Shown here piece by piece: positions 1 to 64,000 of a DNA stretch of 64,000 nt (within the stretch, counting starts at the first letter, position 1; each line of letters opens with the position of its first letter). A model generated the notes under the pieces. The model ran no database searches, was not told the DNA's origin, and saw only the letters and a list, made by a program, of their open reading frames with translations. Source of the DNA: Verrucomicrobiia bacterium. GTDB lineage: Bacteria > Verrucomicrobiota > Verrucomicrobiia > Verrucomicrobiales > Akkermansiaceae. The position numbers and the translations under genes are program-made. The stretch is from positions 1-64,000 of the forward strand of contig JAUIJD010000014.1 in NCBI GenBank assembly GCA_030431475.1. Direction: 5' to 3'.

Positions 1-127
1 CTCCGTCAGCCCTTCACCCGCAAGGAAAACCACCAACAACCAAGACGTCATGGTGTCCGCAATGTGAGGCAATGGGCGCTCACCCGAGCCAAAGGCTTCG
101 GTGTCCTGTTTCAATGAGGCAACAGGG
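1..127. other. Left edge, no assigned gene
   Basis: Nothing here can be assigned. Two forward frames are open from the window edge. One ends in TGA at 65-67 after about 21 codons and the other ends near 118 after about 38 codons. Either could be the tail of a gene lying to the left, but neither tail is recognisable. From 345 to 432, on the other side of the repeat element, I also see no gene. Confidence 0.3.
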
Positions 128-344
128 CAGGGCGATCAAGCCAGGGAAGGGGTCATGCGGAACGTCGGGAATGGGGGAGCATGATGGACCTGATGGGCAG
201 GATGAATGGGATCCTTTTTCCAGTTTCCGGCATCTTGCAGGACGTTCCGCGCACCGTCGGACCGACAAAATTGAGATCTCATCATGCTCATCCTTTGAAT
301 CCTCTCCATCAAGCAACCAATCTCTCCCTGGCTTGATCACCCTG
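128..344 (+). repeat. MITE-like element, left copy (217 bp)
   Basis: The element is bounded by 20-bp terminal inverted repeats, 128-147 (CAGGGCGATCAAGCCAGGGA) and 325-344 (inverse), which match at 19 of 20 positions. A second copy lies in opposite orientation at 63698-63894. It encodes no transposase and is short enough to be a non-autonomous element. It carries a 20-bp segment at about 211-230 that the other copy lacks. No clear target-site duplication flanks it. Confidence 0.75.
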
Positions 345-63639: not shown

Positions 63640-63697
63640 GCGGCGAGGCTAGGCTGCGGAATTTCCAAAGTCCAAATGACAAATGCCGGAGGAGGAC

Positions 63698-63894
63698 CAG
63701 GGTGATCAAACCAGGGAGAGATCGGTTGCTTGATGGAGAGGATTCCAAGGATGACCCTGATGAGATTTCAATTTTGTCGGTCCGACGGTGCGCGGAACGT
63801 CCTGCGAGATGCCCATTCATCCTGCCCATCAAGTCCATCATGCTCCCCCAGTCCCGGCGTTCCGCATGATCCTTTCCCTGGCTTGATCGCCCTG
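63698..63894 (-). repeat. MITE-like element, right copy (197 bp)
   Basis: Inverted copy of the element at 128-344. Its terminal repeats are 63698-63717 and 63875-63894 (18 of 20 positions match). It lacks the 20-bp segment found in the left copy. It sits 58 bp upstream of the rsgA start. A GGAGG-type sequence is present on both flanks and could be a short target duplication. Confidence 0.75.
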
Positions 63895-64000
63895 GGAGGG
63901 GGGCGGCCGGGGTGGGGGTGCGGAGCGGGGCGGTTTCGGCGGGATGTCACATCTTTTCCCCTTTTGGGGGACGAAAGTTCCCGCTAGAGCCGTTAATCAG
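63895..64000. other. Right edge, no assigned gene
   Basis: No gene is visible. The stretch is G-rich (63895-63940) and then contains ATCTTTTCCCCTTTTGG. It probably belongs to the upstream region of a gene to the right. Confidence 0.3.

Follow-up and report, generated by a model that had tools for sequence, protein, structure and literature searches.

MITEPye1 of Paracoccus yeei is a type I bacterial MITE related to IS1182 (PMC11578231), and the repeat analysed here resembles it in being short and non-coding, in carrying the ends of an insertion-sequence family, in its direct repeats and in its stem-loop fold, but differs in its verrucomicrobial host and in its proposed driver, ISAs1. Our search of the openly licensed literature returned general MITE papers only, and none on ISAs1-type MITEs or on MITEs of Verrucomicrobia. 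A second comparison is offered by ISAs1 elements in two relatives of the host (genomes G211 and G157), which, like our element, have a 10-bp duplication, complete at G211, and 20-bp ends that depart from its end pattern at no more than one fixed base. In contrast to our element, which has no gene, is about 200 bp long and has an unrelated interior, they measure about 1,260 bp and encode a transposase of about 390 aa.

We consider the repeat very probably to be an ISAs1-family MITE of type I, presumably moved in trans by an ISAs1-type DDE transposase and generating 10-bp duplications. Such an element would comprise two 20-bp ISAs1-type ends around some 175 bp of non-coding filler. We suggest that a DDE transposase of the ISAs1 family, acting in trans, would recognise the CAGGGYGATCAAGCNNGGGA ends and insert the element at a staggered 10-bp target, which would be duplicated in the process. 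The element may be an ISAs1 that lost its internal part, an origin for which a bridging element in a relative (L103, described below) provides a precedent. The initial annotation stated that no transposase is encoded, and indeed the element codes for nothing: it is non-coding, too short for a transposase gene, and lacks the DDE transposase (PF13808 and PF01609) that an ISAs1 element encodes. Because it has no room for that gene, we file it as an ISAs1-related MITE and not as an ISAs1 element.

Copies, edges and target-site duplications

The window, by which we mean the whole 64,000-nucleotide stretch analysed, contains the inverted pair of 217-bp and 197-bp elements with near-perfect 20-bp ends that had been annotated from the sequence alone (Table 1). 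Copy 2 differs from copy 1 by lying on the opposite strand and by a single central deletion of about 20 bp; the two are 94% identical over aligned columns, with a BLAST identity of 85%. A 60-bp pattern from the left part of the element matched twice in the window and in 0 of 100 shuffles. The terminal inverted repeat of the family is 20 bp long and reads CAGGGYGATCAAGCNNGGGA.

Table 1. Positions of the two MITE copies and associated features in the window
Feature	Position	Strand	Remarks
MITE copy 1	128..344	+	217 bp; same sequence as C93:134769-134985
Copy 1 left terminal inverted repeat	128..147	+	CAGGGCGATCAAGCCAGGGA
Copy 1 right terminal inverted repeat	325..344	-	19/20 to left one; element end reads TCCCTGGCTTGATCACCCTG
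MITE copy 2	63698..63894	-	197 bp; ~20-bp central deletion; divergent intergenic region
Copy 2 left terminal inverted repeat	63875..63894	-	18/20 between copy 2 ends
Copy 2 right terminal inverted repeat	63698..63717	+	18/20 between copy 2 ends
Copy 2 target-site duplication, one side	63688..63697	+	10 bp, GGAGGAGGAC; 8/10 to 63895-63904
Copy 2 target-site duplication, other side	63895..63904	+	10 bp, GGAGGGGGGC
End of a different multi-copy repeat	1..126	+	one base from copy 1; nearly identical at ~10 places

The pair belongs to a larger family. The host genome, a 4.73 Mb draft in 109 contigs, holds 16 copies, so that the family extends well past the two in the window; they are 197-244 bp long, 82-100% identical to copy 1 and, pairwise over aligned columns, a median of 90% identical to one another, and they account for all the well-matched ends in this genome. 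Being multi-copy, shorter than about 600 bp and free of a transposase gene, these 16 elements have the form of MITEs. Copy 1 is 100% identical to the copy at C93:134769-134985, which points to recent copying of one of the two, or to their homogenisation. The proposal that this is a recently mobile non-autonomous family is thus borne out by the 16 copies, their edges at the terminal repeats, their 10-bp target-site duplications, the identical pair and the full-length ISAs1 elements of relatives that have the same ends. No copies of the element were found in the plasmid, phage and viral collections searched. A look for genes interrupted by copies, made across reconstructed empty sites, gave many spurious open frames, the DNA being GC-rich. 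Two copies in the host (L008, 1501-1744; L005, 1501-1726) have additional head-to-tail units, TGATGGACC in L008, and the interior therefore appears to grow by short tandem units.

When the copies are placed in the same orientation, their similarity ends at CAGGG...CCCTG; the copies thus cease to resemble one another just where the terminal inverted repeats stop, which disposes of the concern that the ends might lie elsewhere. Target-site duplications, whose presence had been left to be checked, are of a fixed length of 10 bp. At that length the left and right flanks of the same copy agree at 122 of 160 bases, compared with 49.3 +/- 7.4 for permuted flanks (z 9.8), and the signal falls to z 3.9 at length 9, z 2.5 at length 11 and z <2 at lengths 6-8 and 12-14. 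Agreement of 8/10 or more is reached by 10 self pairs of flanks and by 0 of 240 cross pairs. In the copy at L015 the flank comparison can be read as a duplication apparently displaced by a change of 1-2 bases at the element end.

The minus-strand gene at 433-2529, presumably a glycoside hydrolase from its translation, is followed 89 bp downstream by copy 1, and copy 2 lies between a minus-strand rsgA-like gene and a divergent plus-strand thioredoxin-like gene, names that we likewise take from reading the translations. In G002, a genome of the same genus, the same rsgA/thioredoxin-like pair stands without the element; the intergenic DNA is too diverged there for a base-exact empty site.

ISAs1 elements in relatives and the remnant in the host

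The ISAs1-type transposase domain PF13808 occurs in 44 of 195 genomes of the family, and among the elements that encode it are full-length transposons with the ends of our MITE, as the initial annotation had proposed to seek; G211 and G157 share these ends, and they are found in relatives only, not within the host assembly. The G211 element (C16:29945-31212), an ISAs1 of 1,268 bp, has CACGGCGATCAAGCTAGGGA as the sequence of either end, encodes a 388-aa transposase and is flanked by a 10/10 duplication, TGGATCAGGC. Its counterpart in G157 (contig C98) is 1,270 bp long, begins and ends with CAGGGCGATCAAGCTCGGGA and encodes a transposase of 392 aa, and it reaches the contig end, where a duplication is unreadable. 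Both transposases match PF13808 and PF01609. A near variant in G040 (C39) measures 1,247 bp and has a 10/10 duplication, and several other ISAs1 elements of the family, with different inner ends and the host's own remnant among them, have 10-bp duplications too. Starts in CAGGG combined with a 10-bp duplication, the end features of ISAs1, are likewise what we find in comparison with L045, L055, L060, L072, L073 and L077, all from the same bacterial family.

One locus bears on how such MITEs may arise. L103 (G103, 1501-1710), 210 bp long, resembles the G211 element in each of the latter's two subterminal parts, which suggests that L103 is likely an internally deleted ISAs1, a snapshot of MITE birth; its flanks agree at 3/10, without a duplication. 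The interior of the window MITE matched none of the ISAs1 interiors examined, a point against our reading.

The host's sole ISAs1 (C51, L045 1237-1897) is a 661-bp internally deleted remnant with the ends CAGGGTGACCTCACTT and CACGGTGACTTCACTT, which are of a different subtype, and a perfect 10-bp duplication, GTATTTCTAG. Searching the host genome with the G157 transposase found this remnant alone, and it is also the only PF13808 match there; the host assembly, which is 95% complete, broken at repeats and could miss an unassembled partner, contains no transposase with matching ends, which likewise speaks against our reading. Because the host holds just a deleted ISAs1 with different ends, the MITE family looks orphaned, and it is probably either immobile in this host at present or reliant on a transposase outside the assembly.

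Alternative readings of the repeat and of the pair

The full element folds better than its shuffles (z about -4), as would be expected of a retained regulatory or structural RNA, be it a hairpin, a terminator or a small RNA, rather than a transposon. That excess vanishes from copy 1 once the terminal repeats are removed (z 0.14), as it does from most other copies, so that the signal comes solely from those repeats: the hairpin is their by-product. With a negligible pair covariation term (-0.31), no Rfam match in the window, and target-site duplications that show insertion, we regard an RNA function as very unlikely. A REP/BIME-like or CRISPR-like repeat, dispersed by other means such as a RAYT transposase, would also be short, multi-copy, palindromic at its ends and in some copies intergenic, but the lengths of 197-244 bp, the 20-bp ends, a spacing neither tandem nor regular and target duplications of 10 bp, as in the ISAs1 elements of relatives, leave that origin with a negligible probability.

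The opposite orientation of the two copies, each close to one end of the window, had led to the suggestion that the 63 kb between them could invert or be excised. That they bound a functional invertible or excisable segment is scarcely credible: the limits of the window within its 89.8-kb contig are arbitrary, 14 further copies exist and the pair is not special, and the longest identical run between the two copies is 38 bp. Copy 2 moreover retains its own 8/10 duplication, which an exchange of flanks would have broken, and none of the left flanks of the copies matches the right flank of copy 1, the closest agreeing with it at 4/10. We see no sign of inversion, and recombination between inverted copies cannot excise the segment that they enclose.

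The ISAs1-related MITE reading leaves copy 1 to be accounted for, as its flanks show no target-site duplication. The end of the different repeat beside it (Table 1) is probably that of an insertion sequence; its ~10 near-identical places lie in many cases at contig ends, and it adjoins different DNA in its other copies. We think that the loss of the duplication is probably due to this neighbouring end, one base away, and not to recombination between MITEs, for which cross-matching of flanks revealed no partner (best left flank against the right flank of copy 1, 4/10). The predicted far-side junction of the neighbouring repeat, TCGGTCGGTGCAGGGC, had no exact match. Beside a repeat of the same type on contig C17, an open frame (L112, 3-440) resembles the C-terminus of an integrase-type transposase and has no Pfam match.

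The same ends across the Akkermansiaceae

With at most one mismatch, the 20-bp end pattern occurs in 62 of 195 sampled Akkermansiaceae genomes, whereas a reversed control pattern gave 0 matches in the genomes listed. Exact end matches in the GTDB collection fall nearly all within the Akkermansiaceae and Verrucomicrobiales, and we estimate the scattered exact matches outside at about chance expectation, roughly 15 or fewer. Of the 44 short candidate pairs at the related loci retrieved, 26 had flanks matching at 8/10 or better. Elements of 150-300 bp in relatives are bounded by the same ends and fall, by their interiors, into several unrelated groups; interior sequence in common with the window element appears only in copies from the same-genus genome G017. 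At two loci of that genome (L049 and L050) the two arms of the window family, of about 90 bp each, are kept around a different central stretch of about 65 bp. In other Akkermansiaceae, L131, L182, L189, L193, L197 and L213 are further short elements, which share these ends, lie between perfect 10-bp duplications and have interiors unrelated to the window MITE; L131, L182, L189, L193 and L213 are alike to the window MITE in their 20-bp ends and 10-bp duplications and differ from it in their interiors, of several unrelated kinds.

These elements may together form an Akkermansiaceae-wide clan of ISAs1-driven MITEs, in which shared 20-bp ISAs1 ends surround many unrelated interiors of ~150-300 bp and the elements outlast the matching transposase in their genomes, an idea to which we give an even chance. 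For the family as a whole, our analysis names a likely mobiliser, ISAs1, and a duplication length for a repeat family of many Akkermansiaceae genomes. The underlying biology is standard, and the ISAs1 assignment is useful in annotating and assembling genomes of the Akkermansiaceae. Should the clan of ISAs1-driven MITEs prove real, it would imply that such elements have formed de novo repeatedly and have been cross-mobilised between ISAs1 relatives.
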